This document shows, in pieces, positions 1 to 64,000 of a stretch of DNA of 64,000 bases. The stretch spans positions 18,146-82,145 of the forward strand of contig JADIIU010000056.1 in the NCBI GenBank assembly GCA_027603945.1. The letters run 5' to 3'. The notes beneath the pieces were generated by a model that saw only the letters and a program-made list of their open reading frames with translations, was not told the origin of the DNA and did no database searches. This DNA comes from Terramyces sp. JEL0728 (lineage: Eukaryota > Chytridiomycota > Chytridiomycetes > Rhizophydiales > Terramycetaceae). Both the position numbers and the translations under genes were made by a program. The number at the start of each line of letters is the position of its first letter. Position 1 is the first letter of the stretch.

Positions 1-3000
1 ATCTCCAAGCGGCTTGAGGTTATTCCAATCTTCAACCAGGGTAGATATCTGGTCATTCGTTGCCTGATCTTCTTGAACAATTTTCTCTTTTAACGGTTCA
101 ATTTGGTCTTGGATTAATCTGGTTTTGCGCTCCAAGATTTCTTTGAATGCAGAATGTTCACCATTCACTTGGTCATAGTACAGCCAATCCTGTGGGAATT
201 TATATCTTTGACGTTCAAGAATACGCTGACCGTTATAAAACTGCTTCATTTTCAAATCAAAATTGGTAGTTTCATTGCCCAGTTCTTGAATCAACAGTAA
301 AAAGTTTACCAGATCGTGGGTTGTTGAATAAGCCAAATTCTTTTCCAAAGATTCCCGATAGTTTTTTAAATCAGAATAAAACTGCTGCATTTTTTGCAAC
401 AGGATAGTTGAAAACTTGTTGATCAAATCCCGTTGCCAAATATCATATTGTAGATTGACTTTTTGTTGGACATTGCCATATTCAATCGCCAAACCTCTAA
501 ATTCTTGTCTTGTTTCCGTTGTATCAAATGTGGACCGCACTCTCTTGACATCCAGTAGCGTATTACACCACTTTTGCAAATCATCGCCGAGTGTATCAAA
601 TACTGTCTGTGGTTCCAAGTCCCAAAGCGACTGATATTGTAGCCACTTGTCAACGTACAAACTCAAATCATTGTACAAGCTATCAATGCATTCAAATGCT
701 TTCACCAAATCCTTTGGATCAAGTTTAGATACAAGGTTGAATGTCTTTTGAGTCTGTTTTTCAAAAGAGAACACTTTGATTCTAGGCAACAGTGTAACAA
801 CAGACAGCAATGTCTGGAATTTTCGTGTCCACATTGCTTTCGCACTTTCCATTGGTGGATTCAAATAAATTGCCTGGTTGCGCATCTGGATTGAATAAAC
901 TACTTCGGTATCAAATTCAATATTCCCAAGATTCCAGCTCTTTACCGCTTGGCCAAGTCTACTAAACAAAACATTTTCAATTCTAGCATCTAATCCAATA
1001 ATCCATTCATTCAAGTTGCTGAAACTTTCAAACGCAAGTAAATCAACATTCTTTTGTATCTTGTCCATAATAACAGATAAGACTAGTTGCTCATACTTGC
1101 AATCTTCAAGTTCGCTGATCAATGAATCAATTTCGTTCGTTTTTTGTAAGGCTAGATTGATTTTATCTTGGAATTGGAATACCGATTGAGAAAATTCACT
1201 AACGAATTCCACATACCGTCCTTCATTGTTTTCTTCATACGTATTGATAAAGTAGTCCCATTGCAGTTGGATCCCTTGTTGAACCAGAGTTTGAACTTTG
1301 AGGTGGAATTCACCGACGAGCAACCCGACTTTGTCAACACTAATCAAACACTTTTGGTAAATCCGAAGCGATTCATTTAAAGAGACTGCAAATGGATATA
1401 CTTTCTTGCTATCAAGAGACGCATTCTGTATTTGCATTGGCACAGAGTACCCCATATTCATCAAATTTCGTACTTCCTTGAACACAGATATACTCTTTGA
1501 ATCAAAATTGATTCCCAGCTCCAATTTGTTTAATAATCTGTTTTTGGTGATTGTGAATATTCGTCCACCTATGAACGCTCTATTCATTTCCTCGTTTAAC
1601 CAAGTTTCAAATAAAGATGAAGTGTCGAGCTGTTTTTGGAATGACATTTGTTCATTGTATAGTTTCTGTCCTTCTTGGTATTGTTCCCAGCCTTTACCGA
1701 GGATATACTCTACTTTTTTCATTAATTCATTCAATTGCCGTTCAATCATTTTGATCCAGAGTAGATGTCCGGAAAGTAAAGGCACATCTCTTAGTCTAGT
1801 CAATTGCGAATCGTCGCTATTTTCATACCTCTTCATGAATTTCAAATGCAATTCTTTCAGATCTTCCTTTACCTTTTCAATCAACTGGCTTTGGTACTCA
1901 CGAATCGCACCTCGGATTTTAGGTCGAACAAATAACGCATTAAACTTTGAAAAGATCCGAAACATGTCGTTTGCAGTCTCACATGTTCCCAGCAAATCTT
2001 TTAAATTGGAAATAATCATTGATTCTACTTGGGAAATGTTTGAATTGTAGTTTTGTTGCGCAATTTGCCAATTTAAAGTCCCTTGCTCGGATAAATCCAA
2101 AATATCAATATGTTTAATATGATCAAGTGCTCGAAGGACTAATTCGGTTGAATCAGATATTCCCAGGTCTTGTTTTCCGCCAGTTATTTTCTTCAAAGTA
2201 GTTGATAATTGGTCGTGCTGGACCCGGAAATTGTAAATAAAATCCAGTCGTTCTTCTAGTAATTGATGGTACTTTTCTACTTTGACTGGAATCAATTTTT
2301 CAACGCGCTTTCGAAGTAAATCCCTATGGTTAATAAATAAAACCTTCCGATTGAATAAAATTCTTTAATGCTGTCTTCCCAAGTGCCAAAAATCTTTTTA
2401 CATTCTTCAATGACAGTTTTGAATTCATTGATTTCTAAATACATGAGATTCTTTTGTTTTAAAATCAGCAAAATCTGATTGTTCACATCGCGGGAAATAG
2501 CTTCTAATAGCAATAATGTCTTTTGTATTGGATAAGGTGCTAATTTGAGTTTCTTGTTGACATGGTTGAAAATTGCAGATACAGAGTCGTTTACTTTTTG
2601 CAAATCAGTAGAAGAGAGCAACTCATTGACTGGGAATTCCTTGAACAGAACATTGTATTTTGTCACTTTTTCAATCGCCTCCTTGATTCCAGTGTCTGCA
2701 ATGAACCTATCGTTAGCAATGTCCTACCTAATAGTCAGCCAAAGAAATACCTATAATTAGAAGCTAGGGTACCCTACGGTAGCATGAAATCTTTTAGCTT
2801 GTTTCAATATCTCCAATGTCAACAACACCTTTTCATCATTCAACTGCATCTCAATCAAATGCAAATGCCGCTCCATCTGAATCCAAAACTCAATCTCATT
2901 CCTACTATTATCAATAATCTGATTTTCCAACAATGTGACTTTATGAATTTCGTTTATCCATATTTTTACATCTTTTTGGATTGAATTAAGAAAAGTGGTG

Positions 3001-3513
3001 TCTTGTAATAGGTTGTCGAATGGCTGCTTTTGTTCTGCCAGTCCAACTATGGTTGGATTGAATTTCAGTTGGATATCTGGTATGTTTACTGTTTGCTGCG
3101 ATTGCGCCAGTGATAATTCCAGCTCTGCTAATTTCTTTATGGTTTGCTTATCCTTGTCTTTATTAATTCCAATGTACCTGGAGATTAGTTGGGTGTACCT
3201 GGAGATTAGCCAATCTAATACCTGGAGATTAATCACAAAAACCTTGAATAAAATACGGAGTGATGGCATAATGCAAGTACGAATACAATTCCTTTTCATT
3301 TGGCAAATTCAAAAACAAGAATTCATTCTTTGGATCATTTTCCAATCCTCCTTTTTTAATAAAAACAATCGAATCTGGAATTGGTTTTACTGAAGTTTTG
3401 TCTTTTGTAGTGTAAATACTTTTAAGTGATTGGTCGGTTAGGAAATCTAAAAGAATTTCCTTTTCAATTGGGTTGAATGTTTTGAAATACTCGTAGTAGA
3501 TTTCAAAATCCAT
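1..3513 (-). CDS. DYNC1H1: Cytoplasmic dynein heavy chain, N-terminal part (runs off left edge)
   Basis: Minus-end microtubule motor heavy chain; only the tail (N-terminal) 1114 codons lie in the window and the AAA motor domain is outside. The ATG at 3513 opens a reading frame aligning along its length with animal cytoplasmic dynein 1: FHATV...DTG, YPIQKTLLLLEAISRD, NEMFRIFSKFNALFVRP-like (here NDMFRIFSKFNALFVRP), RGAIREYQ, and KVNLQYD. Reading it through needs three intron loci: an 85-nt locus (3158..3242), a 66-nt locus (2707..2772) and a 20-nt intron (2324..2343). After removal the joints read YFIQ/DKDKQ, FHATVG/FIADTG and SIGR/DLLRKR, all matching the family. The two larger loci are arrays of intron-like units, listed separately. 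The call as cytoplasmic rather than axonemal rests on the conserved tail. Confidence 0.93.
2707..2772 (-). other. Head-to-tail array of three mini-introns in dynein
   Basis: Minus-strand units 2772-2751 (22 nt, branch-like CTAAT), 2750-2728 (23 nt, CTGAC) and 2727-2707 (21 nt, CTAAC) are contiguous, each GTA...AG. Total removal joins GTA GG to G TTC, giving HATVGFIADTG, which lines up with dynein HATVSFDTDTG. Partial removals I tried gave a stop or the wrong frame. Unlike the first array, the units are not obviously copies of one another. Confidence 0.78.
3158..3242 (-). other. Head-to-tail array of four mini-introns in dynein
   Basis: Reading the minus strand, four units abut with no exon between: 3242-3222 (21 nt), 3221-3199 (23 nt), 3198-3178 (21 nt) and 3177-3158 (20 nt). 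Each begins GT (units 2-4 GTA), carries TTAAT or CTAAT near its end and closes in AG. Units 1-3 share the 3' end TAATCTCCAG followed by GTA, which suggests tandem duplication. Removing all 85 nt restores the dynein frame (CAA G + AC AAG). Whether it is spliced as one intron or stepwise cannot be seen from DNA. Confidence 0.8.
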
Positions 3514-3584
3514 TTTTTAAAGATCTTTTTGAGGTTCTGGCCAATTCTCACATAATTCAATACCGTAGAAAACTAATATTTTTA

Positions 3585-3887
3585 TTACAGATTAATGTCT
3601 ACATCAACTTTAGATTTGAGCAGTCCAAAAGCAGGTGCAACCCAGACCCCACAATTACACTGATCACCAGTTAGATTAAAACTGCCGAGCTTGGAATTAC
3701 AATGCTTGCAGTTAATTTTACCCTGGATCTCTGTGGTTTCATATTCCTTTAGAAATATTGTTTGGCAGTCGTTTATTGGCTGTGATCGTTTGCGGTAGTT
3801 GAAGGACTCCTGGCCAACTCCTTTTTCATGTTTGGTTTCATTGTCTTTGGTTGTTATTGGCTTTCTACAATTTTTGCATTTTATCAT
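3585..3887 (-). CDS. Zinc-binding protein resembling the C-terminal domain of Yvh1/DUSP12
   Basis: A 100-residue protein with an N-terminal CxxC (CKNC), then CKHCNSKLGSFN and a CNCGVWVAPAFGLLKSKVD segment. This is the pattern of the C-terminal zinc-binding domain of dual-specificity phosphatase 12/Yvh1 (KLGSYNW...QCSCG.W.TPAF...KSRVD). The phosphatase domain (HCxxGxSRS) is absent and there is no room for it: dynein starts at 3513 and an empty spacer lies upstream. In Yvh1 this domain is tied to 60S ribosome maturation, so a ribosome-related adaptor role is possible but inferred. ATG at 3887 is the only good start. No intron seen. Confidence 0.7.
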   Translation of the reverse strand: MIKCKNCRKPITTKDNETKHEKGVGQESFNYRKRSQPINDCQTIFLKEYETTEIQGKINCKHCNSKLGSFNLTGDQCNCGVWVAPAFGLLKSKVDVDINL

Positions 3888-6159: not shown

Positions 6160-7281
<1,122 letters not shown>

Positions 7282-9287: not shown

Positions 9288-12066
9288 ATGGACAAATCAA
9301 ATTCATTGTTGGCAAACATTGCCCTAAGCATTAATAAGAGATTGGCAGGCAGAGGCGGCTGCGGACAAGTCTATTATGCGATTTATTCAGGACGGGAAGC
9401 TGTTGCAAAAGTAGCTACGCAAACAAAGCATGAAGATATTATTTTAAGGGAATACAAAATGATGAAGGAGTTGACTTCAGAATACACTGTAGCGGCAATT
9501 GTGTTCTTGCATGGCGCTTCCATTACCTTGCCGGAGGAAGAGGATAAAGTCCCCGTCCCAAGATCCTGTTTATTCATGGAGTGGATGAACTGGGGTAGAC
9601 CGACGCTAATAATAGGTACACTGGGACAGTATATTGTCAAGGAAAGTAAACTGGACGCAATGGAGCCGGAATTCATCAAGAAAAGAAGCGTTATTCTTCA
9701 GCAGCGAGCAGGGATAATGCTAATGGCCTGTAAAGGGATCGAATATATTCACAGAAAGGGATATGTGCACCTGGATATCAAAGCAGAAAACGTGTTGCTG
9801 GATTATCATAACAATAAACTTCAGGCAAAGATATCCGATTTTGGGTCTGTGCTCAAGGAGGGGTCCGTAACTGGAGTTTTTCAGACACCAGGTTATGTGC
9901 CTCCAGAATCAAAGAAATCCAATTCGGTACATTGCTATTAACATAGAAAACCAACAAATATGATATCTTTGCGTTTGGGAGCATGTTGATTCATATTGTC
10001 ATGCTGGAAAACTTTCCATTCATGTGGAATGGAACTCCAAAGACTTTTGAAGGAAAGGAAGACTTTTTGAAGGAGCATTTGACAGATAGAAATTTGTTGC
10101 AAATTATACTAAAGGCCATTGCCCCAGAACCATTCAACCGTCCCTCCATTTTGTCTGTGGTTGACATGGTATCCAAACTGAATGAAACTTCATTCAAATT
10201 AGCCAAGCCTGGAGAGTCACCATTGCAGAAAAAGAATATCGTAGCTGGTACATTTGTATTCATTTAGGTATGAGTGTAATGTCGGTTGTAAATGAAATTT
10301 CCGAGATGACGCAAGATACTGCAGCAGGATATTTATTCCAAGAATTGGGGATTTCAAAGTCCAAATGTTCGTGGAGTCAGTTTTGGGAGAAGTATTGCGC
10401 TAGATTCTTGAAGGATGCAAATTACATCAATCAGGAACGATTTAGAGTCGAATTTGGAATCAACAGAAACTATGTTTCTATTGCAAACATTAATAATACG
10501 CTTTTTAGAGAACTTCCAATGAAACAGGAAATGGGAGACGAGCAGATTTGGAAAGACCAAATAATGGATACCCTTCAACAAACTCATGCCAAGTGCAAAC
10601 AAAACAACGTTTATGTCTCAAAGATGGACCTCGACGGGTTTAATCTAGCACCGGAAATCAAAAACAACCTCAACAGTAACATGGTGTTCAAGTTTGGAGC
10701 TCCTCAAAACCCCAAAACCAAAACTCCAAAGTTAAGCGATGGAGACGAGGGGAGAGTTGCTAATCTGATTATTCTAGGCGCAAATCAAACTGGGAAATCC
10801 TCACTAATAGGAAGTTTAATGAATGGGCAAGTGTTTTGTTAATCCAAGTGATGACACCAAGGTGGTTGCTGCCAATCTGGTCACAGGACAAGCTGTTAAA
10901 TCTACTATGGAGCAGGCTTGGGTTTCTGGAGAAGATAGAATTGCCACTTGGGAATTCAAGACGGAAAAGTACACTGTAGCGATCAATGATACTCCTGGAC
11001 ACAATGGATTTTTGAGAAATTTAGTTACTGGTGCTTCAATTGTAATTATATTTAACAGCAGGCTGATTTTGCACTCATTTTGATTTCTCCAAACTTGGAT
11101 CAATTCGAACTAGAAGACCACCCCGGAAGCGAAACCAGGAAACAACTACTTTTGGCGAAACACTTGGGAATCAATCGTTTGATTATTGTTGTGAACAAAA
11201 TGGACGAGAGTAACTATTCGGAGACTGTTTTCACTGACATTCAGATGAAATTTAAGAATATCTTGTCTATAATCGGGTATTTCCCTCAATCGTGCCCGTT
11301 TGTGCCTGTATCTGGACTAACGAGCGAAAATATCCTGCGCAGCTCATCGAAAATGCCTTGGTATCATGGATGGAAAGCTGATACTTTTTATGAGCCTTCA
11401 CACGGCCTGTCGCTCAGGGAAGCGGTCAACTCGGTTGAAATTGTATCTGACAATAACAAACCCTTGCGGCTGCCGATACAGAAAGTGGTTGCTGACGCTA
11501 CTGGAACCACAATTTTTGGAAGAATCATGTATGGGACTCTCACAACTGGAATGAAGATCAAACTAAACCCTGGATCAATTGTTACAGAAGTAGAATCTAT
11601 CCATTCCAACGATGGCGTTCCATACACGACAGTAAACAAGTATCATCAGGGATTCATTAGGGTGCGCTTACCTCTCATGAATGCCAATATTACTACAAGA
11701 ATGGTTATATCCAATCCAAAAAGGGGGCCAGCAGTCGATATATCTTCGTTTATAGCGATTTTAACTATACTCCCGATTCCAGGAAAGTTGGTGTCGAAAA
11801 CAGCACTGCAAATGCTTACCTCAACATTGACCAATTACTGTCAGATTACAAGGTTGATTCAAAAATTAGATCCGCATACTGGTAAAGTACTTCAAGAACG
11901 TCCTCGATACCTGGTGCATGACGATGTTGCAGTAGTTGAGTTAGTAAACTTGCAAACTGTTTGTTTAGATACCTTTACCGAGTTTCCAGAACTGGGAAGA
12001 TTTACGCTGCAGCAAGATGGACGCGCCATAGCAATTGGTGTAATTACATCCATTAGAAGAGCTTAA
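9288..12066 (+). CDS. Protein kinase fused to an eEF1A/eRF3/Hbs1-like translational GTPase
   Basis: Residues about 1-320 form a protein kinase: glycine loop GRGGCGQVYYA, catalytic HLDIKAENV, DFG, PGYVPPE. About 190 residues follow of unknown type, then a translational GTPase: P-loop GANQTGKSS, DTPGH, NKMD, MPWYHGW, PLRLPIQ and a C-terminal LGRFTLQQDGRAIAIGVI. Switch I lacks the usual GITID, so nucleotide-driven switching may be altered. Introns: 9927..9946, 10248..10267, either 10833..10848 (16 nt) or 10827..10848 (22-nt GC-AG), and 11042..11061. The second is decisive: unspliced, the kinase stops at 10267 and a new ATG follows 2 nt later; the 20-nt intron joins both in frame (900 residues). 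Two separate genes remain possible. Confidence 0.75.
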
Positions 12067-12159
12067 TTAATATAATACTAGTCAATGAATTGATCTCATG
12101 CTCAATCCAGATATTTCCGAGCACAAAAACTCTTATCGGAACCTTTATTCTACTTTATT

Positions 12160-13515: not shown

Positions 13516-13641
13516 TGTTTTTCAAAAAGCCACCAATGGATCGCGGCTGCTCACGAGATGTTGCACAAGTCCAAAAGTTACCAAGGATATATAAATAAGC
13601 GTGCTGGATATTACATCATTCAAAAAGTGAAAAATTTATTC

Positions 13642-16278: not shown

Positions 16279-16313
16279 TATTGTTTGTGATCTCTTGAAT
16301 TTAAAATTTCGCC

Positions 16314-16866: not shown

Positions 16867-16955
16867 CGAGATCTAACGCGAAAAATCAAAAAACAACAAC
16901 GAAGAAAAAACGGGTGGGGATCGGATTTTCCGCCGTTTTTTTAATTTAGAGTCAC

Positions 16956-49449: not shown

Positions 49450-49511
49450 ACTATCAATTCAAGCATTTTTCAGTGATTTCAAAATCGTGACTCGAAAGTT
49501 TGCGAAAAAAC

Positions 49512-50243: not shown

Positions 50244-50323
50244 TAAGCGGTGGGTTGTAAATCAATAAAGCCTTTAATCTGTTAATTATCACGGATGAGG
50301 ATAACTAGTGAGGAACGTATTTA

Positions 50324-52954
50324 TTAAGCCCATAATGAAGAATCGAATGCAGAAAATTCGACAATCTCGTCAACATTGTTACCTCCAGTTTCATAACTAA
50401 CTTTGATTCTTAAACGGATTTGTTGACGAGTGGAGTTTTCAATTTTCAACAACTGGTAAGCTGGCTCACTCGGGGTTACAGTTGAATTTGAGCTTTGTTG
50501 CATCATTAGTTTGAAATTCTTAGGAACGGCTACCTGGAATAGCAAGTTATTGATTGTGGTAGTTGCAGAGAAATTTGCTTTGACTTGGGTAACAGTAGGC
50601 GATTCCTTGTTTGGTAATAGAGTAACCAAGAGCCCATTCTTTTCATAACATTTCAATGGCTGGTAAGAAACCGGAGTAGGCGCTGGGGTAGGTGTAGAGC
50701 CAAATAAATCACCAAGGAGATCAACCGCGTTAGAGTTTGCTCTCACTGGACTAACAGTTGTAGCTGCAGGCACTAGTCCACCCAACAAGTCCATAATATC
50801 CTGAAATTAGCAATATTTACGTCTGGTTTTGGGGCAGAGGTAACCCCAGGATTGATAGCCAGCCCTTCCAGGTCTCCAAGTAGATTCACACCAGTATCTT
50901 TCTTTACTGGAGCAGCTTCTACAATCAGCTAATATTACCTTGAACAGCCGCGCCAGTTCCTTTTAGGCTTTCTTCTTTAACGGCACTTTCTAAAACAGGC
51001 ATATGTTCAAGTACAGCTTGTCTGGTCCCTAAATCCAGTTGATAGATTTCATCATATTCCACGGCTCTTTGTTGTATTTCAACATCGATATTAGTTTTGC
51101 TGGATTGAATGTAGTCCCTAATAGATCTAGGATTAGATTAGATTACTGAATGACAGAGTGGGTCTTGAACCTAACCGATAGCTTGATTAAACTTGTAATT
51201 CCATATTCTCTGACAAAACTAGTAGCATATGGACCTCTTAAAATGGCAATGATTTTGTCCACTATTTCTTGTTCAGTAGGTATAATCTCTTGTTGATCAT
51301 CCGCATCTTCATCGTGGCCAAAAGTATTGCCGGTTCCTTCTTTTGTCAAGATGTCCCCATATTCTCCTAAACACCAGAATGTCGCCTGCAACAACCCTTC
51401 TTGTAATAGAGTAGTATCTTGCAGAGGCTTGATTAGCAAGTATAGCTTCGCAACCGCATATTGGTGAACTTGATGATCGCCAGTAGTGACTAGTTTGACA
51501 AAATGGTTGATGACAGATTGATCCACATATGCTCCGACAACTCGAAGCACTCTGATTATTGTGTCAATTTCCCATCTCTTGTTTGGTCTATATCTTCCAG
51601 CATATTCACAAATTCTTGATGAAACTGATGATTTTTGATCTGCTTCCGTAACTTCCAAGTAAGACAGCAACTCTCTTGTTAATATTCGGATATTGGCAGG
51701 TGTGATCAAATAAAACGACAGATCCAATGCTCTTCTTCTGATTGAGACATCAGGGTCTTTTAAGCAGTCTAGGACAGTTGAACGATGCCTTTGTAATGCC
51801 GTAACGTCAGTAGATTGTGCAGTTTGAGAAGTCTTGGTCAAAGTCGTCAACGCTACATACCTACAATCAAAAATTAGATACTTTATGTTGTTGTCCTTAT
51901 TTTGCAAGAACCTTCCCAAGATGTTGATTGCCAATACTCTTAGTGACGAATCACTTTCAATATTCATAATTGTCAGAACGGTTTCGTACAAAATTGCATT
52001 GCCTACATTCTTGGAAGCTTCTGTGGTCGTAGCCACTTGAGCAAGCACATCATTCATGGCTTCACTAGCCTGCTGATTTCCTTTACCTAATACGCGCAGC
52101 AATCTCAATATTTTGACTTGAAGGAATGGATCTGTTATTCCATTGACATCATGTTCTGGCGAAGATCCGCCGGCAACTAGCGTTTTCAAATGTCTTGCCA
52201 ATACCGGGACTGATGGTCTGATAACTTTAGTGATATCTTCATGATCGGCACACATTTGCTCCAAAAGAGTAACTCCAGTCAACAAAACACCGTGGTTTCT
52301 CTCGTTCAACAGGGTTTGAGCTCGTTCAACAAAATGCTCTGCCAAATCCGGCACTTTGCGCACAATCCTGAGGGCTGTCAAACACGCCTTTTTCCTAATG
52401 TATGAATTCGAACTCCCCAATAGCCTTTCAACTTCTCCAGACAAATCTCTTGACATTTCCGGAGATGCGATATTTCCCAAAGTACACAACGCTAAACCTA
52501 CAATATACATGTTTTGGTTATTCATATCACTGTGATTAACACAAAAGGTACTTTTTCAGGCAATTGGTAACTAGAGTCAGTGTAGCTTGATTTTCATCCA
52601 AAAGTAGCATAGTTCCCAAGTACGCCAATCGCTTGTCAGTGAATTTTGGAGAGGCGGCTTCAATTAATACGAATTACCTAAGCATTAGAATCAAATCATA
52701 CCTAACTTGAGACATTCAATTTGTCCAAAATGCGCAGGATACCCAAGCATATGAATGTAAAGTAACTTTTCAATATTAATATATCTAGTCAGATTATTTT
52801 CCTCCTTGAACGCAGTTCTAATATTTGCTGATTCCTTTTGAATCACTGCTCTTTCATCTGCTGCAGTCTTACAGAGTCTAATCGATTTAATCAGATCCTT
52901 GAGTGTTGTTTGCCCGATAACGGGAATCATTTTGGTCAAATTATTGAAATCCAT
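50324..52954 (-). CDS. APL4: AP-1 complex subunit gamma (gamma-adaptin)
   Basis: Large subunit of the AP-1 clathrin adaptor (trans-Golgi/endosome). Spliced 827 residues: trunk starting [101 protein letters not shown], a hinge with two DLLG motifs, and a C-terminal ear ([13 protein letters not shown]). Introns: 52658..52701 (44 nt, two units), 52530..52551 (22), 51861..51881 (21, stop-free), 51127..51146 (20), 50919..50938 (20) and 50801..50820 (20). Start ATG 52954. An overlapping upstream ORF to 53150 is not supported. Confidence 0.95.
52658..52701 (-). other. Head-to-tail pair of mini-introns in gamma-adaptin
   Basis: Minus-strand units 52701-52678 (24 nt, CTAAT near the end) and 52677-52658 (20 nt, gtaattcgtattaattgaag) abut at AG|GTA. 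Removing all 44 nt joins TTA G to CC GCC, giving [15 protein letters not shown], as in gamma-adaptins. Confidence 0.78.
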
Positions 52955-53231
52955 CGAGATGGGTTTGTGATTTGGAAAATCTTGCGAGCAAAAAGTAGAA
53001 TGAAACGCTGATTTTCAATGACAAACCACTACGCCTAGTTGCACCAGAAATAAGATGGATTATTCGGTAGTGAGATTCATTTCCCCCAGTTAATTCCAGC
53101 GTAGATTCAGCAACTGAACCCAAAAGTTGGACACGCTCATCATAATTCATGAATGGACAAGCTCAAACTACAAAATGGTTTATTGGTAAACTTGCGATAT
53201 AGAGGATGTCAAGCTTTGAATGGTATTTCTT

Positions 53232-54194
53232 TTATTCACGGATAATAGATTCTTGTCTCTGGGTTTGGGGATTCGGATCAGTGTTTCTAGACAATGAAGA
53301 TAGCCTACCAATGTCAAACAGCTCTCGTATATTCCCCTGAATATTGAAATCAAACAAGTACAGTATTAGACAGTTTGCGCAGCAATTCATTAAAGCACAT
53401 ACATTGGCGAACCCGTCCATCCATTCCAGCTGTAGATGAGTAACAGTTTCATAGAGTATAGAGACAAAGTAAGGTGTCCAAAACAGCAGCTGTGTACCGC
53501 AGATTATGATTGACTTTACTAGCAGAAGCCGCTCTTTGGTATTAATCTTTTTCCCAGCCTTTCTCTTTGAAAAATACATCTGAATGATTCTGTAGTAAGC
53601 GTAGAATAAAATTGCAGGAACTGAAAATAATAGCACAACTGCTATTATCGAGATTGGAAGTGATAGCGGCTCTTTCGAGTACCACTTGAATTCACAATTT
53701 AGCTTTGCGTATCCAAGGACTACCAAGATATCCATTGCATCAACGAGATATGGATATAAGCCAAAAAACAAGGAAAATAACCACAGACCAAATAGTATCT
53801 TTACTGTCTGGTTGTATGTCAGATTAATCCGGTGAATGATTGCCAAATATCTTTCCAGTGTAATTGCAACCAAGGACAGATTCGTAGCAACAGAGAACCC
53901 ATCATCAATCAGAATCGTGGCAATGCAACCTTCTATTCCAACCGCAAAAGTTTCACTAGTGGTATTTATAGTCGCTACTATACTGTGCAGCAAACATAAT
54001 CCAAAATCGGCAATTGCCAGTGATAATATAAATAAGAATCGGGGATTGTCCATTGGTCTGAATGATGACATAAATATTGGAATGTATCCTAACAATCCTA
54101 GTACTGCGAAACACTGTGAGATACGTGCATATATGGCTTCTTCTGTGGATAGCTGTATTGCTGACGATACCTTATCAAAATCTATGACCTGCAT
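53232..54194 (-). CDS. Rhodopsin-like (class A) G-protein-coupled receptor
   Basis: 320 residues, seven helices. Helix 2 LSLAIADFGLCLL (the D2.50-type LxxAD), helix 3 ending LERYLAI (ERY for DRY), helix 6 QLLFWTPYF, helix 7 NCCANCLILYLF (relaxed NPxxY). A cysteine after helix 2 (EGCIAT) and one in loop 2 (NCEFKW) could form the usual disulfide. No lysine in helix 7 at the retinal site, so not an opsin. Ser/Gln-rich C-tail. Class A GPCRs are absent from yeasts and moulds but occur in animals and some early fungi. Ligand unknown. Intronless; stop overlaps AATAAA. Confidence 0.82.
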   Translation of the reverse strand: MQVIDFDKVSSAIQLSTEEAIYARISQCFAVLGLLGYIPIFMSSFRPMDNPRFLFILSLAIADFGLCLLHSIVATINTTSETFAVGIEGCIATILIDDGFSVATNLSLVAITLERYLAIIHRINLTYNQTVKILFGLWLFSLFFGLYPYLVDAMDILVVLGYAKLNCEFKWYSKEPLSLPISIIAVVLLFSVPAILFYAYYRIIQMYFSKRKAGKKINTKERLLLVKSIIICGTQLLFWTPYFVSILYETVTHLQLEWMDGFANVCALMNCCANCLILYLFDFNIQGNIRELFDIGRLSSLSRNTDPNPQTQRQESIIRE

Positions 54195-54367
54195 GTTTCG
54201 GAGAATTATAAACGAAACTAAATCACAAAGAAAAATTCATGTGCATTCTGTTTGATGCTTTTTGACGTACGGACTGGTTTCTAATTTAACCGCCTTTCGA
54301 TCGCGTACAGTAGTTGAATTTGGGTTGGAAAACCCTGTCAGCTTGACCCCATGAGTTCAAAAGTAAT

Positions 54368-54853
54368 TTATTTCTTGACAATCAATACCGGTGCTTTACA
54401 GTTGTCAAGCATGTGTTTGCTAAAACTGCCCCAAATCAGCTGCATCAAACCTTCACCGCGTTGCCCCATTACAACCATATCACAATTTAAACTATCAATG
54501 AATTCAACCAAATCATTAATTTCACCAACACCAATATAGAATTCTACACTGAAATCTTGAAGGTCTTTACAATACAATTCCATCATTCTTTCTTGCTGTT
54601 GATAATGAAGCGCTTTCATCTTTGCATTCAAATCGTGGTCGTATCCAGTCAATTCTACGTAAGGCAAGATATGGGGTGGTTTTTCTGAGGGAGCTCTGAT
54701 ATTAACCAAAATGATTTTGTCCGTAATATGAAATAGTTTTTCTTTACACCAGCTGACAGTGTGTTTGCTGAAATCAGAATTATCAAGTGGGAGTACCAGT
54801 GTTCGTTTAACTTTAGTGTCTTTCAGGTACTGGATGTGAGTGATATCTTTCAT
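54368..54853 (-). CDS. Universal stress protein (UspA) domain protein
   Basis: 161 residues. Start VKRTLVLPLDNSDFSKHTVSW and the ATP-binding motif VVMGQRGEGLMQLIWGSFSK then HML...APVLIVKK (GxRGxG-x9-GSxS...PV) are diagnostic for nucleotide-binding Usp proteins. Single domain, no intron. Stress-associated, biochemical role not known. Stop overlaps AATAAA. Confidence 0.88.
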   Translation of the reverse strand: MKDITHIQYLKDTKVKRTLVLPLDNSDFSKHTVSWCKEKLFHITDKIILVNIRAPSEKPPHILPYVELTGYDHDLNAKMKALHYQQQERMMELYCKDLQDFSVEFYIGVGEINDLVEFIDSLNCDMVVMGQRGEGLMQLIWGSFSKHMLDNCKAPVLIVKK

Positions 54854-55004
54854 TTTCGGTGAAAAATATTTCGTGATTCCTGCTAGTAATAATTACACAT
54901 GGAGCTTTTTATCGTTCTGTTGAGTGTAATAACACTTGCAGATTGCATTCCACGGCTTTCTTTTCATGAACTACTCAAAACAAAATTCTCGTCGCTTAAC
55001 CGAT

Positions 55005-55530
55005 TTATTTCTTTGCAGTTTCAAACCTAGAAGGGGTTTGTAGATTTGTCAAGATTCGAACGCCAATAAGAGAAAAGAATAATACAACCAGAGTTGCAAA
55101 GATCCCCATAAAGATTCCAGGTGAAAAGAATTGGTATGTCTGGAAAGTAACAGGCGAGGTGTACATTACCGCTCGCTTTTCTACGTCCCTCTTTTCGATT
55201 CCCGATCGCTTACCTACAATAATTACAGTTTGTTCCAAATCAAGCCTATCCAAGAAACTCTGATCATTAATTTCAACTCTTTGAGCTTCTGGGCAATCGT
55301 AACGGCTGTAAGGCAAGTACTGCTTGTGTTCAGCAGAATCATAAACATCCTTTAGTAGCGGCAACTCGTTTTTCAAATTTGAAGCGTGTAAATCCTTGTA
55401 TTCGTAAATTATTGTTTCCGGAGAGCATTTCAACCTAAATTAGGATAGCGTACTCGTTGTTACTGAGCTTTAGTACTGGCACAGAGTCTTTGAATCCCAA
55501 GGCAAGTGTAATCAAGAACACGATTTTCAT
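55005..55530 (-). CDS. V-ATPase assembly/accessory protein, Big1/Voa1/Ac45-like
   Basis: Spliced 168 residues: cleavable signal peptide MKIVFLITLALGF, a luminal part with dibasic sites (EKRDVEKR) suited to furin/Kex2 cleavage, then FQTYQFFSPGIFMGIFATLV and LFFSLIGVRIL, the C-terminal TM segment typical of Ac45/Voa1/Big1. These proteins help assemble the V-ATPase Vo sector. A 19-nt intron (55435..55453) joins exon 1 (ATG 55530) to the remainder. The luminal domain is much shorter than in relatives. Start codons of this gene and NDUFA12 are 21 nt apart. Confidence 0.68.
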
Positions 55531-55551
55531 TTTTCACGAAAAAACTTGCAA

Positions 55552-56022
55552 ATGGCATCACTTCAAAACGGAGTTTCTGCACTAGTACAAGAAAAACTAA
55601 TGTTAGCTTCAAAATTTCAGCAAGCATGGAATCGGAAAGACAATAAAAATGATGTTGACAGTGTCTTCACCGAAATACGGAACTCTTGTCGGGAGTGATT
55701 TCCATGGAAACGAATATTTTGAAAATAGAAACGATATTTCAGGTAGAGATCGGTGGGTGGTTTACAACAAATGGAATTTCGATGCATCGCAAGTTCCGCC
55801 TGAATGGCACCAGTGGATCCACAGGTATTTTATGCTGATGTAGAATGACTGATGAAGTACCAGACGGGAGGAACTTTCGGAATTCATTTTATACTCCCGC
55901 TCATGTTGAAAATCCTACTGGAACCAAAGGTATTTTGGATTAACAAAGGCGCATTCAAAACTTATTCTACAGTGAGACCAAAAATACAACAATGGGAACC
56001 AAAAGTATTGAAAAGAGAATAA
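55552..56022 (+). CDS. NDUFA12: Mitochondrial complex I accessory subunit NDUFA12 (B17.2)
   Basis: Spliced 136 residues: KYGTLVGSDFHGNEYFENRN, GRDRWVVYNKWNFDASQVPP then EWHQWIH, and NPTGTKGAFKTYSTVRPKIQ then QWEPKV, the classical B17.2 signature. Part of respiratory complex I. Introns 55585..55606 (22), 55825..55843 (19) and 55930..55948 (19). The exon 1/2 joint restores a family-like N-terminus. Evidence that this organism keeps complex I. Stop overlaps AATAAA. Confidence 0.93.
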
Positions 56023-56102
56023 ATTGCATGGAGTTTAGTTTCAGTAGGGCTGGATGGAATTGATTGTGTTTATGCAAGTTTTGAGATGCAGAAGAATATT
56101 TA

Positions 56103-56600
56103 TTAAGATTCGATAACAAGAATTATAGATCCGGTTGGAGGCACAAGCGATAACTTCCAGTACATTGCCAGTGCTTCCAGTCCCCACACGATAAATATAA
56201 AAAGATAATCATACGCAGTTACTCTGTCAAAGTACGAGTCGCAATAAAGAAAGAGAAAGCTGAAAAAGAATTGTCCAGTGAATGGAATCAAGTAAGAAAG
56301 CAAGTACTGTATCCGTGGCAGATATTCCTGGTATTCATCTGGATGGTATTTCCAATAAATCCTGTTGGGGATGCTGATGTACTGAATCGGTATTCTGGGC
56401 ATACTGCATATGAATGCGGTCATTATAAGGGCTAGCACCAATCCTGAACCAATGATCAAGCCAAACGCTAGTTGTTTCGGTTTGCTGTGTGGATACTCTG
56501 GCAGTAGCGGATTATAAATTACTGCTACTATAATAGTTGCTACGAGAAATAAAAGGTAAATCACCAGCGGTATCGTTCTTTTCAAAGCGGATGGTTTCAT
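56103..56600 (-). CDS. Four-helix membrane protein (paralogue 1)
   Basis: 165 residues from ATG 56600 (MKPSALKRT). Four hydrophobic helices; shared motifs with the neighbour at 56670: IYNPLLP, [VI]PN-[RK]-[IV]-YW, HP-[DE]-EY, YLPRIQ. No family recognised; the conserved NPLLP and YLPRIQ lie at the membrane faces. Tandem duplicates, with 69 nt from the upstream stop to this start. Stop overlaps AATAAA. Confidence 0.6.
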   Translation of the reverse strand: MKPSALKRTIPLVIYLLFLVATIIVAVIYNPLLPEYPHSKPKQLAFGLIIGSGLVLALIMTAFICSMPRIPIQYISIPNRIYWKYHPDEYQEYLPRIQYLLSYLIPFTGQFFFSFLFLYCDSYFDRVTAYDYLFIFIVWGLEALAMYWKLSLVPPTGSIILVIES

Positions 56601-56669
56601 GTAAAGATTTTCCAGTCCTCGATTTGGTGAATCACAGACTGGAGATTGCAAGATGAATAAACTTTATTG

Positions 56670-57234
56670 CTACTCTACCACAATAACTTTAGTATCAGGC
56701 AGCTGGTTCAAGAAATAGTAGACTGTTCCGATTTCGCCTAGTAGGATAATAATAAAGATAAAAATGTACTTTATCCGGTCATCGTTCTGGACAACAGAGT
56801 CAAAGTACAACCACATGATGCTGCAGAGTAGCTGTGCAACAGCGGGAACCAAAAACAACATGCAGAACTGTATCCTTGGCAGATACAATTTGTATTCCTC
56901 CGGATGGCCAATCCAGTAAACTTTGTTTGGTACGTTAATGTACATGACATTAATCTTTGGCAAGAAATAAATTACAGCTGACAATATTAGTCCTAGACCG
57001 AATTCCAATCCCAAAATTACTGCATAAATAGTTATTTTTGGGTTGTTTTTGTGTGGCAGGTTGTCTGGAAGCAGTGGGTTGTAGATTGCAATGAGGATTG
57101 CGGTTACCATTACAATTAATATGTAGAGAGCTAGCGGTACTAGTTTTTAATATACAGCTGGCATCAGTGAAATCGGCATGTTTTTCCACGCGTAATAGTT
57201 GCTCATCGATAATGATCATTCGGTTGAGTAGCAC
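56670..57234 (-). CDS. Four-helix membrane protein (paralogue 2)
   Basis: Spliced 182 residues: ATG 57234 (MIIIDEQLLRVEKHADFTDAS), a 16-nt intron at 57140..57155, then LPLALYILIVMVTAILIAIY and NPLLP. The splice is needed because helix 1 is open only in a frame with a stop just upstream, and it gives the helix seen in the paralogue. Shared motifs: NVPNKVYW, HPEEYKLYLPRIQ. Function unknown. Confidence 0.62.
57140..57155 (-). other. 16-nt intron
   Basis: gtatattaaaaactag between AGC T and TA CCG in the four-helix gene. No other GT within 25 nt upstream gives the required phase. Confidence 0.6.
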
Positions 57235-57262
57235 AAAATGAACACAGCTGAATGATGGTTGT

Positions 57263-58658
57263 TTATTTTAATGGAAGCACAGCATTTGGCAATGCAGTTG
57301 GTGAATCAGTTCTTAATTCATCAGAAAAGATGTCATCAAACTTGCCAGCCCATTTGGTTCTATTGGTCAGTCCGATTCCATCTCCTCCAAGCCCAAAGAT
57401 GGAATCCAAAGTAGCAGGAATTGAAGAGTGTTCAAACTGCGAATCTTCAAAAGGTTTTGAAGTAGGTCGGTGTTTAACAGAGCCTTTTTCTACCCAAGGC
57501 GAAATGAACAATACTGGGACACGAACTCCTAATCTTTTGAAATCGAATGGATATTCTTTTGGTCCAAGGATCCCGTCTGGCGAAGGGACATTGGCTGGTG
57601 GAGGTACATGATCGTAGAACCCACCTATATTAAATAAACTTACCATGTTCATCAAAAGTAACTAGCAAAAGGGTTTCATTCCACTGCGGCCCGTTTCTAA
57701 CTGCTTCGTAAACTCTTTTAAGCAAATCTTCAGCCCTGCCAAACAACCCAGGTGAACTACCATCATTTCTCAAAGCAGTGGTATTCAAATCCGGATTAGC
57801 TGCGCCAGCAAAATCACCATAATAAGGATCCAAGAATGAATACTGTGGAAGAATTCCCTGTTGCGCATGCTTCATAAAATCAGAATCCAAATCAAATGCA
57901 TTGACTCCAGGGTTAAGAATCTGTTGCAAATCTTCCATCAAGATCAAAGTTGGGATTTCTAGGTAGTAATTGGACCAAGTTTTGTTTTTTGCAATCATTA
58001 CATCGATAATATTCTTTTGAGGGAAGCCGCTGATTGCTGTTTGAGCAGTAGAGTCTATAACCCCATTCGAAGTGCCAGAGTGTGAAAATGCTCTGTTTGG
58101 CTGAGTATCGCCTGGACCACTAGCAAACCAGCGATCACACACCATGAATTCTTTTGCCAAAGTAGTGAATATAGGAATATCGGTTGGGTTGAATGCAGCC
58201 ATGACCAAATCAACATCTTTTTGCGGGAATGATCCAGTGCGAAGCGCGTTCTGAACAAATCCATTCATTGGTGCTTTGGTGTCGTAGTCCTGCTGGGTAA
58301 GAGTGCTGGTCTTTCCGTACAACTACATTAGTTTTGTTTACTTGTTCCTGGGTGCTTTGGAAGGAATGGTCGGGTCCGTATTGCGAGTACCATTCCTTTG
58401 CAAGCAATTGCTTGGAGGTGCAGACTTTTGGCGAATTCAAATCAGATACGTTAATGTGATTGCAAAACGTTTTGTCTGCCAAGTTGTCTATATCAGAGTT
58501 ATGGTCCAGATAGCCAAAGATTGTATCAAAAGCCCTGAATTACCAGAAAGGTACCTGTTTTCAAACATGATGTGGACAACATTCTTGATTGGTGTATTTT
58601 GGGCTTGTCTATTCTCGATTGGTGTTGCAGCAATAATAGGAAGCAAAAAGTTTATCAT
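57263..58658 (-). CDS. Secreted phosphoesterase, phospholipase C/acid phosphatase family
   Basis: Spliced 445 residues with a signal peptide (MINFLLPIIAATP from ATG 58658). Motifs of the phosphatidylcholine-phospholipase C/acid phosphatase (Pfam Phosphoesterase) family: NVVHIMFENRAFDTIFGYLD (metal ligand and N-R-x-F), CDRWFASGPGDTQPNRAFSH, PQYSFLDP, LLVTFDEHGGFYDHVPPP and RVPVLFISPWVEKG. Probably extracellular or wall-bound, hydrolysing phospholipids or phosphate esters. Introns 58535..58554 (20), 58323..58341 (19) and 57625..57643 (19). An upstream in-frame extension exists but the signal peptide decides the start. Stop overlaps AATAAA. Confidence 0.86.
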
Positions 58659-58957
58659 TGCCGATGCTTTATTGTTTGGCCATTTATGTGCCAGTGCAAA
58701 GACCCACATGTAGCGGATTGCGCACGAGGCTACCATTTCCAGAAAAAGAAATACCTTCAATCAATGGAAAATTAAAAAAGAATAGAGATTCGTGGACCGG
58801 ATTGCTCAGAGCGGCTGGATGAAGAGCGGCTTGCATCCAAACAAGAGTTTTCCGGTATTCGGCAAAAAGTATAATACATGTTTTTATGATCTGTCAATGT
58901 ACTTGTACAACGTTCCCAAATGAAACGAATGTAACATGATAGGTTGATGCGGAGAGG

Positions 58958-59871
58958 CTATGGCACATGTTCCAAAAGTGCGATTGTATCCTGCTGTTCA
59001 ATAGACACTCGTGGAGGGGTAGCAATGCTATAAGTAGAAATCATGTCTTTGGATACAATAAAACTGCAGTGCAAAAATACATATGTTGATTGTGCCACAC
59101 TTGCAAAGCTACAGTCTAGTTGTTAGTTGGCAAATACAGAACCCGGCCATGTAAAGACTATTCGGCACAAAATCGTTCAGCGCCAGAATTGTAAATCCAA
59201 TAGACGAAAAAATCTTTAATCCAGCCATAATAATGTAATCAAACAACGAGTATTTGGCGAAACATTCCATCAATAATTCTGGTTTCGGCACTTTTAATTC
59301 CACAGCAATTTCCCAAACGAAATTCATTGAAGAAACAATCATGCATACCGTTTCGTATAATATTGATAGCACAACCATTGATAGCGTCAAATGTGCATAA
59401 TGGCTTGCGAATACCGTTTGGACTTTGCCATTAATTACTTCAAAATTCAGCAGACATCCAAGTATAATATTCGCCAGTTTAACCAGTATCCCAAAAATAT
59501 TTACCACAATCAAAATTTTTTTGGTAAGGGTAGTCTATATTAGAACAATAAACCTTTTTCAGGGCATACAGTCGAAAAATGATCAATGAATAGTGGAAGC
59601 TAGTGACGATGTGATAAAAAACCCCATACAGAAATGCATATATTGCTCTGGTTGTTGCTGAAATATCGTACGGTGTAATACTGTATTCCAATATCGATAA
59701 GCAAAAGTACAAGATACCAAAATGTAAAAAGACACATATCCAGCCAACAATCGTGAATTTTGTAATTTTCCTCCTGTTTTCCAGCAAAATATGTATACAG
59801 GATAGATTTGTCTGCAGTGTGAAGCCAAATATTACAATGACAGGCACTATATAAGAATTAGTCCTATCCAT
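58958..59871 (-). CDS. Orphan seven-transmembrane protein (paralogue B)
   Basis: Spliced 290 residues; begins MDRTNSYIVPVIVIFGFTLQ, keeps FTIVGWICV, SITPYD, VFYHIV, FDYIIMAGLKIF and TYVFLHCSF. Introns 59535..59553 (19) and 59116..59137 (22). The second restores the last helix and a tail (STYSIATPPRVSIEQQ). It lacks the middle intron found in paralogues A and D. More similar to paralogue C next door than to A or D. Confidence 0.7.
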
Positions 59872-60055
59872 CTACCGACGCGTGAAACTATTTTCAAAAA
59901 ATTGCACCAATAAACAAACGAAAATATTTGAAAAACTTTCCAACAATAAAAATGTTTGTAATTTGGAATATTCTAAACCAAGTTGGATAAATTGGAATTA
60001 CCATCGTGAGGCAATACTAAACAATAATATAATTCTATTATACTTGCAGAAGCTG

Positions 60056-60982
60056 CTATTCAATTGGAAGTAATGATAAAGTTTCTTGTACTTGAAGTTC
60101 TTGTGATGATCGAGGAGGCACGAATTGCTTGCCAATACTGTATGTAGATATCAGCTCTTTGGAAACGGTGAAGCTGCCGTGAAGGAAAACAAACGTTGCA
60201 GGAATAGCGCTTGCAAGGCCGCACTCTAATATTATGGCAAGCTACCTAATCCAATTAGATACATAACACTAGGCTTGAAGTTGTTGCGTGCCAATATTAA
60301 AAACCCTATGCAAGAAAATATTTTCAATCCAGCCATTACGATATAGTCCATTAACGCGTATTTTGCAAAGCATTCCTTTAGCAGCTCAATCTTGGGAACA
60401 TTTAGCTCTGAGGAAATGTCCCATATGAATTGGATTGAAGACGAAATCATACAAATCGCTTCGTAAAACACAGTTACTACTAACATGGCCAATGTAAAGA
60501 ACCCGTATTTGCTTTGATAAACCGAATTTGCATTCTGGTTGAGAACATCAAAATTTAGCAAGTTTCCCATGATGAAATTGATTAACTTGATTAATAATCC
60601 AATGAGATTCACAACGAAAAGAATCCTTTTGGTAATTGTAATCTGAATTAGATTGCAGTACTTTTTTGACGGCATATAAGCGAAAAATGATCAACAAATA
60701 GTGGAAACCAGTGACAGAGTGGTAAAATAGCCCTGCAAAATACTGATATAGTGTGTATGTTTTAATTGCTGAATCATACGGAGTGAAGCTGTACAATATC
60801 CAAACCCTAAAAAATATTATTCCAAAGTTAAGAAAGACACATATCCAGCCGATAACTGTAAATTTTGTAACCCTATGGCCATTTGCAATTAATATATGTA
60901 TACAGCTAAAATAATTCTGGAATACAAATCCGTATATTACACAGGCTGGAACTATATATGAGTCAAGATCTCTATCTCCCAT
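60056..60982 (-). CDS. Orphan seven-transmembrane protein (paralogue C)
   Basis: Spliced 295 residues from ATG 60982 (MGDRDLDSYIVPACVIYGF). Shared motifs FTVIGWICVFLNFG, FTPYD, FYHSVTGFHY, MDYIVMAGLKIF, TFVFLHGSFTVSKELIST. Introns 60643..60661 (19) and 60226..60245 (20, gtagcttgccataatattag). C-tail VPPRSSQELQVQE is hydrophilic. Function unknown. Confidence 0.7.
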
Positions 60983-61117
60983 ATATAACGCGTCCAGCAA
61001 AATGATGTTGAAAAGGGAAGAAATTACTCATGCATTGTAAAATGTAGCTAGGCTCTGTAAATAAGCACAAGATAACTGCGAGAAAGAGATGCTAAAACTA
61101 TAAGGATATATTACACC

Positions 61118-62070
61118 CTAATCAGTCATGGTCTTCTTGATACTAACAGAGTGACTGCCAGATCCGCTCTTTTTTCTAACGTCAACATTAATTACTGTCC
61201 AACACTATAGTCACTCAACAATTGCTTTGGAGCGTTGAAACTGGCATGGATAAAGATATAAGTAGCAAAGATCGCACTGGCCATTCCAGCACCTAGATTA
61301 ATGCAAGTTACCATTAGCAGAGAGATAGATATTGCTTGGAACAAAATTGTTTTTAATTACAATTCCAAATCCAACACAGGCGTATATTTTCAGCCCAGCC
61401 ATAATAATATAGTCGAATGCTGCATACTTTATGAATAGTTGGCTGAACAATTCCATTCGAGAGATTCCTAATTTGGATGCAATAGAGTAAATAAAGATGG
61501 CTGACGCGCTTACCATTACCACAGTCTCATAAAAGGCAGCAATAATTACTGCGTAGGATTGTGGCTAATTACTGCATAATTACCTTTGCCCATGGACTTT
61601 GCAGCTGCGAGGCATACGTCCCACCAATTACTCCAGCATTCAAAATAATAGCGAGGATAATATTGACCAGTTTCATAAGAATACCGACAACAGAAGCAGC
61701 AAGTAATACCTTGTATTTCGTACTGGATTTCTAATTAGAATATTATTACCTCCATGAACAGAGAAAGCCTGATAATAATAATATAAAAGAGAATACAATG
61801 GACCAAATGAAAACACAATCCAGCTACAAAATTATACACTGCATAGCTTTTAGTCGATAAATTGTATGGCGACACTGTAAAATCCTGCATAACAATTTGA
61901 CAGAGCAGCAGTACAAAATTAAGTGCGATACACGTCCAGCCAATTGCATTGAATTGAGACAGTTTGTTGTTAGAGAGTAGGATGTGGACAGATTGAAAAT
62001 TCTTTTGTAGTGATGCTCCAAAGATGATTACCACTGGAACAACATAGGAAGAAATTAATCTGTCTGTCAT
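61118..62070 (-). CDS. Orphan seven-transmembrane protein (paralogue D)
   Basis: Spliced 291 residues; nearest relative is paralogue A 13 kb away (MTDRLISSYVVPVVIIFGAS, QKNFQSVHILL, MQDFTVSPYNL, QSPWAK, FDYIIMAGLKIYACVG, APKQLL). Four introns: 61731..61749, 61565..61583 and 61293..61311 (19 each) and 61176..61195 (20). Two are at the same positions as in paralogue A. The last adds a Lys/Ser tail (KKSGSGSHSVSIKKTMTD). Confidence 0.72.
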
Positions 62071-63525: not shown

Positions 63526-63603
63526 CCTCCTATGTGACTTGGATCTAATTTCATAGTCAATATTTATCTCAACTGTATATATTATTGTTTTCGAATTGAA
63601 ATT

Positions 63604-63734
63604 TCAACTGCGAGGAAGCGTACCACGTTTGATATTATCATTACAACCTTCATTATGGTTTGATGTAGCGTTTGGAACTCTGTGATTTGGTTTCGCGACT
63701 TTACTGCTACCGAATCCATAAGTTGATCCCATTC
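63604..63734 (-). CDS. Doubtful small ORF
   Basis: 42 codons from ATG 63734 (MGSTYGFGSSKVAKPNHRVP), Gly/Ser/Asn-rich. No relative known; may be chance. Confidence 0.2.
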
Positions 63735-63844
63735 TGAAATTCGTGAAATGATGATTGAGAGCGAAATTAAGCAAAAAAAGGCTTACAATGAAACGCTCAA
63801 GGAATTGATCCAAGGCACTACTTTTCGAATGATTAGATATTTCA

Positions 63845-64000
63845 ATGAAACGTTTGGTAAAATTCAAACTAAACCGCGAAAAAGCAGAATTGGAGGTGAT
63901 TATCTCGTGCCAAGGGCTGTATAAGTTCAATCTTTTGGGTGAACAATACCTCATTAAATGGGATTCTGGTTCAGTAGGAGAGAATAGTCACGATAGGGTT
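63845..64000 (+). CDS. Partial gene running off the right edge, unrecognised
   Basis: From ATG 63845 (MKRLVKFKLNREKAELEVII) the frame stays open to the edge, with GLYKFNLLGEQYLIKWDSGS looking like genuine protein. A different frame just upstream (63750, MIESEIKQKKAYNE) is also open and may be an earlier exon joined by an intron I could not place. No family recognised. Confidence 0.35.
   Translation, partial: MKRLVKFKLNREKAELEVIISCQGLYKFNLLGEQYLIKWDSGSVGENSHDRV

Follow-up and report, generated by a model that had tools for sequence, protein, structure and literature searches.

Introns of 15 to 16 nucleotides (nt) occur in 18% of the genes of the ciliate Stentor coeruleus, the commonest of them starting GUAAUUUU (PMC9505925), and the introns of the Bigelowiella natans nucleomorph measure 19 nt (PMC2483917). 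A whole-genome class of ultra-short introns, of about 25 nt, is known from Paramecium and Nyctotherus (PMC5014332). In Paramecium the donor is largely GT(A), and the introns are described as lacking a branch signature (PMC2483917). The introns of the fungus Cryptococcus neoformans have a mean length of 63 bp (PMC8476143). Here, a 64-kb stretch of DNA from a chytrid fungus (the window), together with further samples of the same genome, was analyzed for introns of about 20 nt that start with GTA, carry a branch-like YTRAY motif (Y, C or T; R, A or G) and end in AG a few nucleotides later. Judged from the DNA, the genome of this member of the Terramycetaceae is very likely split by some 19,000 to 20,000 U2-type spliceosomal introns, nearly all of them 18 to 23 nt long.

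The chytrid introns resemble those of S. coeruleus in forming a single narrow length class with GT-AG ends and a conserved GUA, in the small lariat that they would form and in the short tail after the branch A, which is 5 nt in most Stentor introns (PMC9505925). The branch site itself differs. As far as the available text of that report goes, Stentor has no strong branch consensus, with the branch A mostly at nt 10 to 11, whereas the chytrid has a clear YTRAY with the A mostly at nt 14 to 16; Stentor has canonical small nuclear RNAs (snRNAs), but Slu7 and Prp18 are listed there as undetected (PMC9505925), and the chytrid encodes Slu7. The introns of B. natans are likewise of nearly equal length, with a donor mostly reduced to GT(A). 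They belong to a relict endosymbiont nucleus, however, and are stated to lack a branch-point signature (PMC2483917), in contrast to the fungal genome, where the signature is kept. Paramecium and Nyctotherus share a whole-genome ultra-short class but are ciliates, and their introns are a few nucleotides longer (PMC5014332). A branch motif set a few nucleotides before AG, with no pyrimidine tract, is also described for Yarrowia, Trichomonas and Giardia; these are intron poor, and Yarrowia introns are rather long, whereas the chytrid introns are many and wholly minimal (PMC2483917). Genes of C. neoformans are similarly rich in introns, which are about three times longer than those of the chytrid (PMC8476143). 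The chytrid matches the ultra-short-intron genomes in length class and weak donor and differs from them by its clear branch signature.

No report of fungal introns of about 20 nt was present among the literature matches listed, subscription papers and preprints lying outside that scope, and the accessible text of five articles (PMC8476143, PMC5364385, PMC8371127, PMC9698843, and PMC13391722) does not mention them. Annotators may know of the short introns, the public gene models of relatives being already largely spliced. The original prediction held that the introns rival the shortest known and are unusual in fungi. Their size is already known from Stentor, the nucleomorph and Paramecium/Nyctotherus; what is new is that, in a fungus with many introns, those of about 20 nt bearing a branch site are the norm, which extends the known class to fungi.

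Results

A single length peak in motif counts and coding joins

The genome comprises 15,016,339 bases in 231 contigs, and the window covers bases 18,146 to 82,145 of contig C56. The survey covered 264 kb, made up of the 64-kb window and twenty 10-kb stretches taken from 19 further contigs, counted throughout as 21 sources; stretches of the genome outside the window carry L numbers (e.g., L003). The stretches were not chosen at random, most being bases 10,001 to 20,000 of their contigs. Segments of the form GTA..[CT]T[AG]A[CT]..AG were counted by total length on both strands of the 264 kb. There were 117 of 19 nt, 110 of 20 nt, 64 of 21 nt and 44 of 22 nt, over a background averaging about 30 per length between 23 and 65 nt. 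Nine alternative start triplets gave no comparable peak, although GTT was slightly raised at 17 to 21 nt (43 to 46 versus about 37). When GTA and AG were kept and the middle motif was scrambled in three ways, lesser peaks were seen at 19/20 nt (64/58, 57/56, and 43/32), in keeping with capture of the same GTA..AG introns. A stricter motif left 31, 22, 8 and 3 matches at 19, 20, 21 and 22 nt, against about one per length up to 250 nt. Across the whole genome, the pattern GTAATTN{5,7}TAAYN{2,3}AG had 1603 matches versus 101 for the reversed pattern. It captures 25 of the 332 strictly called introns of the sample described below, and scaling by it suggests a genome total of about 19,900 introns, with about 18,900 suggested by plain density; both totals are rough because the sample was nonrandom.

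The length class was also recovered by a join test blind to inner motif and to length, in which a finder with coding statistics derived only from long open reading frames could skip 10 to 60 nt with set end letters. With GTA..AG ends, 76 of 118 joins were 18 to 23 nt long, and with GT..AG ends 70 of 143, compared with 2 to 15 joins of this size for eleven control end pairs. The control AGT..AG (13 of 54, six being 19 nt) was raised because it overlaps true donors. YTRAY was in place in 52 of the 70 motif-blind GT..AG joins of 18 to 23 nt and in 18 of the 73 outside that range. Among control joins of 18 to 23 nt it was in place in none for GT..AC (0/11), CT..AC (0/12) and GTA..AT (0/9). The pairs GA..AG (9/15 at 18 to 23 nt and 31/101 at other lengths) and TTA..AG (0/9 and 24/73, respectively) gave no clean zeros, because they borrow the AG ends of true introns. 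The 70 joins were spread over 18 of the 21 sources, with none at 18 to 23 nt in L003, L008 and L011, and had A at +3 in 81% and G at +5 in 17%. GT(A)..AG was the one combination of ends, of those examined, to produce the length peak, and no second peak was found up to 60 nt in the coding joins or up to 250 nt with the motif.

Gene models and intron census

The trained finder predicted 153 genes, 32 of them in the window, with 442 introns (about three per gene model), 417 of which were 18 to 23 nt long. Calls of 15 nt (n = 16) and 30 nt (n = 10) by the first model were treated as noise at multiples of three (3n), and in the final training 15 nt was excluded and 30 nt down-weighted. Since the finder over-calls open-frame segments of 21 nt, stop-free 3n calls were set aside. 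Dropping these and the genes scoring ≤15 (91 calls) left a strict set of 351 introns, of which 332 were 18 to 23 nt. Every one of the 21 sources contained at least three strict introns, with densities between 0.38 and 4.00 per coding kb, and all three codon phases were used (of the 351, 153 were in phase 0, 115 in phase 1, and 83 in phase 2). The true share of the 21-nt calls is uncertain, 42 having a stop and 49 being stop free, versus about 35 stop-free calls expected.

The window holds 56 strict and 27 other intron calls, which bracket the 65 to 70 introns that had been proposed for it. Of the length range given there, 16 to 24 nt, the part from 18 to 23 nt is borne out (18 to 22 nt by homology), and the 16-nt cases are unsupported. 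One of these, at 10833 to 10848 (+), has better geometry as a 22-nt GC-AG intron. This candidate, GCAAGTGTTTTGTTAATCCAAG, at window positions 10827 to 10848 (+), lies in a GTPase gene that is EF-Tu/Hbs1-like in appearance (named by eye).

Intron anatomy

The consensus of the 332 introns reads exon ..AG, GTAATTTTT .. TTAAY N TAG, exon, and their lengths form one narrow class peaking at 19 to 22 nt. Beyond GT(A) the donor is degenerate: G was found at −1 in 50%, A at +3 in 85%, A at +4 in 51%, G at +5 in 14% and T at +6 in 55%, GUAAUU being the commonest donor. The 70 motif-blind joins show the same trend. The acceptors were TAG (194), CAG (82), AAG (52) and GAG (4). YTRAY was in place in 223 of the 332 introns versus 10 of 524 GTA..AG segments within coding sequence, a comparison that is partly circular, as the caller was trained on the motif; the motif-blind figure of 52 of 70 is not. 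Where the motif was present, the branch A was at nt 14 in 128 introns, nt 15 in 66 and nt 16 in 22, and 204 of the 223 introns ended 5 or 6 nt after it. The other 109 introns had no YTRAY in that place, and a looser T-N-A fits 285 of the 332. This consensus and the motif-blind joins agree with the expected GTA donor and YTRAY-like branch motif close to the AG. Introns of the U12 type have an ATATCC-type donor and the branch sequence TCCTTAAC. The consensus found here is unlike that type; no search for U12-type introns was made.

Agreement of junctions with related proteins

Eight genes (Rab7, Rad51, NDUFA12, AP-1 gamma, CLC, fimbrin, IFT121, and Upf1) were aligned to solved structures and their junctions judged by eye on the alignments, and the vinculin junctions were compared by script with four relatives. 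Among the 43 calls in the structure-aligned genes, 32 were gapless at the junction, 1 was refuted and 9 lay beyond the aligned parts or on their margins, 2 of these because the fimbrin N terminus had been trimmed from the model. Over all nine genes, with 51 calls, 38 of the 42 testable junctions were supported, at lengths of 18 nt (n = 1), 19 nt (n = 12), 20 nt (n = 12), 21 nt (n = 9) and 22 nt (n = 4). The window contributed 27 of the 38. The other 11 are in IFT121, with eight supported junctions, and Upf1, which lie elsewhere in the genome; the presence of an IFT121 gene is in line with a flagellate fungus. Splicing also restored family matches. Slu7, which matched as two pieces (139.2 plus 104.2 bits) when unspliced, gave a full-length match of 289.2 bits when spliced, and U2AF65 rose from 251.7 bits to 334 bits, over the curated cut-off of 310.3. 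Stops were read through for the unspliced scores.

The Rab7 gene (49512 to 50243, +) aligned without gaps to Rab7 9wes (E value, 5e−99) over residues 4 to 199. All five of its proposed introns, at 49546 to 49566 (21 nt), 49589 to 49608 (20 nt), 49741 to 49760 (20 nt), 49981 to 49999 (19 nt) and 50152 to 50173 (22 nt), have their junctions inside this alignment. In Rad51 (6160 to 7281, −), the alignment to RAD51 5jzc (E value, 1.5e−166) was gapless at the five junctions of the introns at 7177 to 7197 (21 nt), 6975 to 6995 (21 nt), 6733 to 6752 (20 nt), 6558 to 6578 (21 nt) and 6284 to 6302 (19 nt). A sixth Rad51 call of 21 nt, at 7050 to 7070, is coding and would delete seven residues present in 5jzc.

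For vinculin (35653 to 38434, −), four relatives were found among 8000 candidates scored: Terramyces sp. JEL0728 (96% identity over 84%), two members of Boothiomyces, B. macroporosus and Boothiomyces sp. JEL0866 (both 87%), and Globomyces pollinis-pini (48%). The first two genera are members of the Terramycetaceae (Rhizophydiales, Chytridiomycota), and it is by this single protein that the genome was placed in the family; an earlier assignment to the aphelids or sanchytrids was abandoned in view of the vinculin match. The start codon, ATG at 38434, was placed from the relatives. Six of the eight calls, the number of introns first proposed for this gene, were supported, each junction being gapless in at least two of the four relatives: 38030 to 38048 (19 nt), 37603 to 37621 (19 nt), 37453 to 37471 (19 nt), 36801 to 36822 (22 nt), 36584 to 36602 (19 nt) and 36154 to 36173 (20 nt). 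The remaining two, 38392 to 38410 and 37322 to 37342, were refuted against the relatives, the latter being coding. Three of the four public vinculin models (the two Boothiomyces and the Terramyces) each depart at one short-intron junction where the others keep residues. It is possible that these departures are annotation errors arising from the tiny introns.

The CLC-type chloride transporter gene (18320 to 20496, +) was gapless at all four junctions in the alignment to H(+)/Cl(−) exchange transporter 3 (8jev; E value, 9.8e−172). Its introns lie at 18585 to 18602, at 18 nt the shortest supported by homology here, 19101 to 19119 (19 nt), 19648 to 19667 (20 nt) and 19882 to 19901 (20 nt). In the AP-1 gamma adaptin gene (50324 to 52610, −; 5′ end uncertain), 1w63 (E value, 9.1e−156) supported three junctions, at 52530 to 52551 (22 nt), 51861 to 51881 (21 nt) and 51127 to 51146 (20 nt, with a 2-residue gap at most 3 residues away), and two calls lay beyond the aligned part. 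A search for another copy of the Rab7/AP-1 stretch found none. The NDUFA12 (complex I) gene (55552 to 56022, +) had two junctions supported by the 7zm7 and 9cwt alignments, those of the 19-nt introns at 55825 to 55843 and 55930 to 55948, and a third at the edge of the aligned part. Fimbrin (−) had introns at 15056 to 15074 (19 nt) and 13800 to 13819 (20 nt) supported by 1rt8.

It had been pointed out that all spliced models give whole codon counts. This is weak evidence at 21 nt, as the coding segments called in Rad51 and vinculin illustrate. In Paramecium, selection acts against 3n introns that are free of stops. The chytrid shows no sign of this, with four of ten homology-supported 3n introns stop free when read through, although the number is small.

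Variation between copies

Two near-identical copies of a two-gene stretch (98.9% identity), L022 (1 to 3106, contig C199) and L023 (1 to 3105, contig C111), indicate that one or more duplicate or allelic stretches remain in the assembly. Both copies encode the same predicted proteins, so the 15 exon substitutions are all synonymous. Just two indels fall within the genes, each of 1 nt and each in one of two introns (21 versus 20 nt in both cases); introns make up 121 of the roughly 2,360 gene bases. In the window, three paralogues (48031 to 48982, 60056 to 60982, and 61118 to 62070) within a span at 48031 to 62070 (−) that also holds other genes have their first intron at a matching codon (within one residue) in phase 0, with a different inner sequence. 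The second intron is present in two of them and absent from 60056 to 60982.

Spliceosome components

A canonical U2 snRNA was found (140.2 bits) with its GUAGUA intact, and U2AF65 (334 bits) and Slu7 (289.2 bits) are encoded, both in gene models that themselves contain such short introns. GT..AG ends, a branch motif that fits U2 and the encoded canonical U2, U2AF65 and Slu7 make it very likely that the elements of about 20 nt are U2-type spliceosomal introns.

Other genes in the window

Four small, cysteine-rich, zinc-finger-like proteins, paralogous by eye, are encoded at 20774 to 21400 (−), 23044 to 23478 (−), 33963 to 34658 (+) and 35008 to 35646 (+). The one tested, 33987 to 34658, matched no Pfam family at an E value of 0.001. 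The three paralogues described above belong to a hydrophobic, probably multi-pass membrane family, all on the minus strand (48031 to 48982, 59109 to 59871, 60056 to 60982, and 61118 to 62070). Three copies were aligned and 59109 to 59871 was assigned by eye; again, the one protein tested (61118 to 62070) had no Pfam family at an E value of 0.001. A receptor of the rhodopsin family (7tm_1, 87.4 bits) is encoded in this fungus at 53232 to 54194 (−), and a long valine/glutamate-rich protein at 41369 to 43092 (+). The latter contains an internal direct repeat of 171 bases, 90% identical, at 42243 to 42412 and 42378 to 42544.

Discussion

Length peak, join test and homology agree, and the proposal that introns of about 20 nt are spliced throughout the genome is very likely right. 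Several observations weigh against it. An initial test of junctions by hexamer coding scores, at a strict threshold, showed nothing above the controls (three GT..AG joins at 18 to 23 nt, 0 to 5 for nine controls); windows of that size carry little codon bias, which explains the outcome, and the dynamic-programming finder was used instead. Three of the 42 testable calls were wrong, and one more, at IFT121 residue 468, counted as neither supported nor refuted. Canonical U1 and U6 snRNAs carry ACUUACCU and ACAGAGA, respectively. Neither RNA was found in the genome by Rfam or by pattern, the latter being the 5′ end plus loop for U1 and three patterns for U6, but these searches had no positive control and absence is therefore not shown. 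Assembly gaps, divergence or, for U6, interruption may account for the misses. Two weak U6 matches proved to be coding exons plus an intron. Of four pattern matches to U6, those in L025 and L028 had no Rfam U6 match, and those in L026 and L027 were read by eye only. RED_N was not found either, in a search whose control was also silent and which is thus not evidence of absence.

An alternative is removal of the segments by some other route, either translational bypass or DNA elimination as in ciliates, in which short inserts have fixed ends. However, the assembled DNA still contains the segments, their GT..AG ends and a fixed-distance branch motif fitting the encoded U2 GUAGUA are marks of the spliceosome, and U2AF65 and Slu7 are encoded, which makes such a route very improbable. 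An origin of the inserts in faulty assembly or sequencing, or pseudogene status of the genes, is scarcely credible, even for a 231-contig assembly with at least one pair of near-identical duplicate stretches. Errors would not share a GTA start, an AG end and a YTRAY 5 to 6 nt before the end; conserved genes (Rab7, Rad51, U2AF65, Slu7, IFT121, and Upf1) are all built in this way, and the L022 and L023 exons differ by synonymous changes only. Around a real core, by contrast, the tails of the length distribution (16 nt and 24 to 30 nt) and many of the open-frame 21-nt calls are probably artifacts of gene finding. Four of the six strict 16-nt calls had motif scores of 3.5 to 7.2 (versus a median of about 9 for 19 to 20 nt), one can be read as the GC-AG intron, and the motif and coding joins revealed no second length peak. 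Homology was available for six open-frame calls of 21 nt; two were coding, but the other four were real, and a few outliers score well: 16-nt calls with 9.9 (L003) and 9.2 (window), both in low-scoring gene models, and a 28-nt call with 10.6 (L021). A modified major spliceosome is an unlikely possibility. Its donor recognition would be independent of standard U1 pairing (there is no +5 G), and its U1 and U6 would be too diverged, or its U6 interrupted, for standard models, with U2-branch pairing, U2AF and Slu7 kept. If true, the splicing machinery of a fungus would have been remodeled to let U1, U2 and U6 act within about 14 nt.

For introns spliced by the U2-type spliceosome, the minimal unit would consist of a GUA donor, a YURAY with the branch A usually at nt 14 to 16, and an intron end 5 to 6 nt beyond. 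U2 GUAGUA would pair with the branch site as usual, and the first step would give a lariat loop of about 14 to 16 nt with a tail of 5 to 6 nt. Because the reacting groups are just about 13 to 15 nt apart, there would be little room for U1 and U2 to bind next to each other in the way they do on large introns. The donor would therefore probably pass to U6 at an early point, and pairing with U1 may be relaxed at +4 to +6. In human splicing, about 50 nt from donor to branch is reportedly needed for efficiency, and Smu1 and RED are required at short distance (PMC6692369). The chytrid introns may be ancestral ones that were reduced to the steric minimum rather than newly inserted.

The chytrid is an exception to the reported trend for lineages with very short introns to have degenerate intron sequences that lack a branch signature (PMC2483917). 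Genomes of this kind may be mis-spliced by gene-finding programs tuned to longer introns, as the three departing public vinculin models could illustrate. With thousands of introns spanning about 13 to 15 nt from donor to branch, the lower size limit of the spliceosome would become open to direct tests beyond ciliates and nucleomorphs, the family being one that has strain-numbered relatives (Terramyces sp. JEL0728 and Boothiomyces sp. JEL0866).

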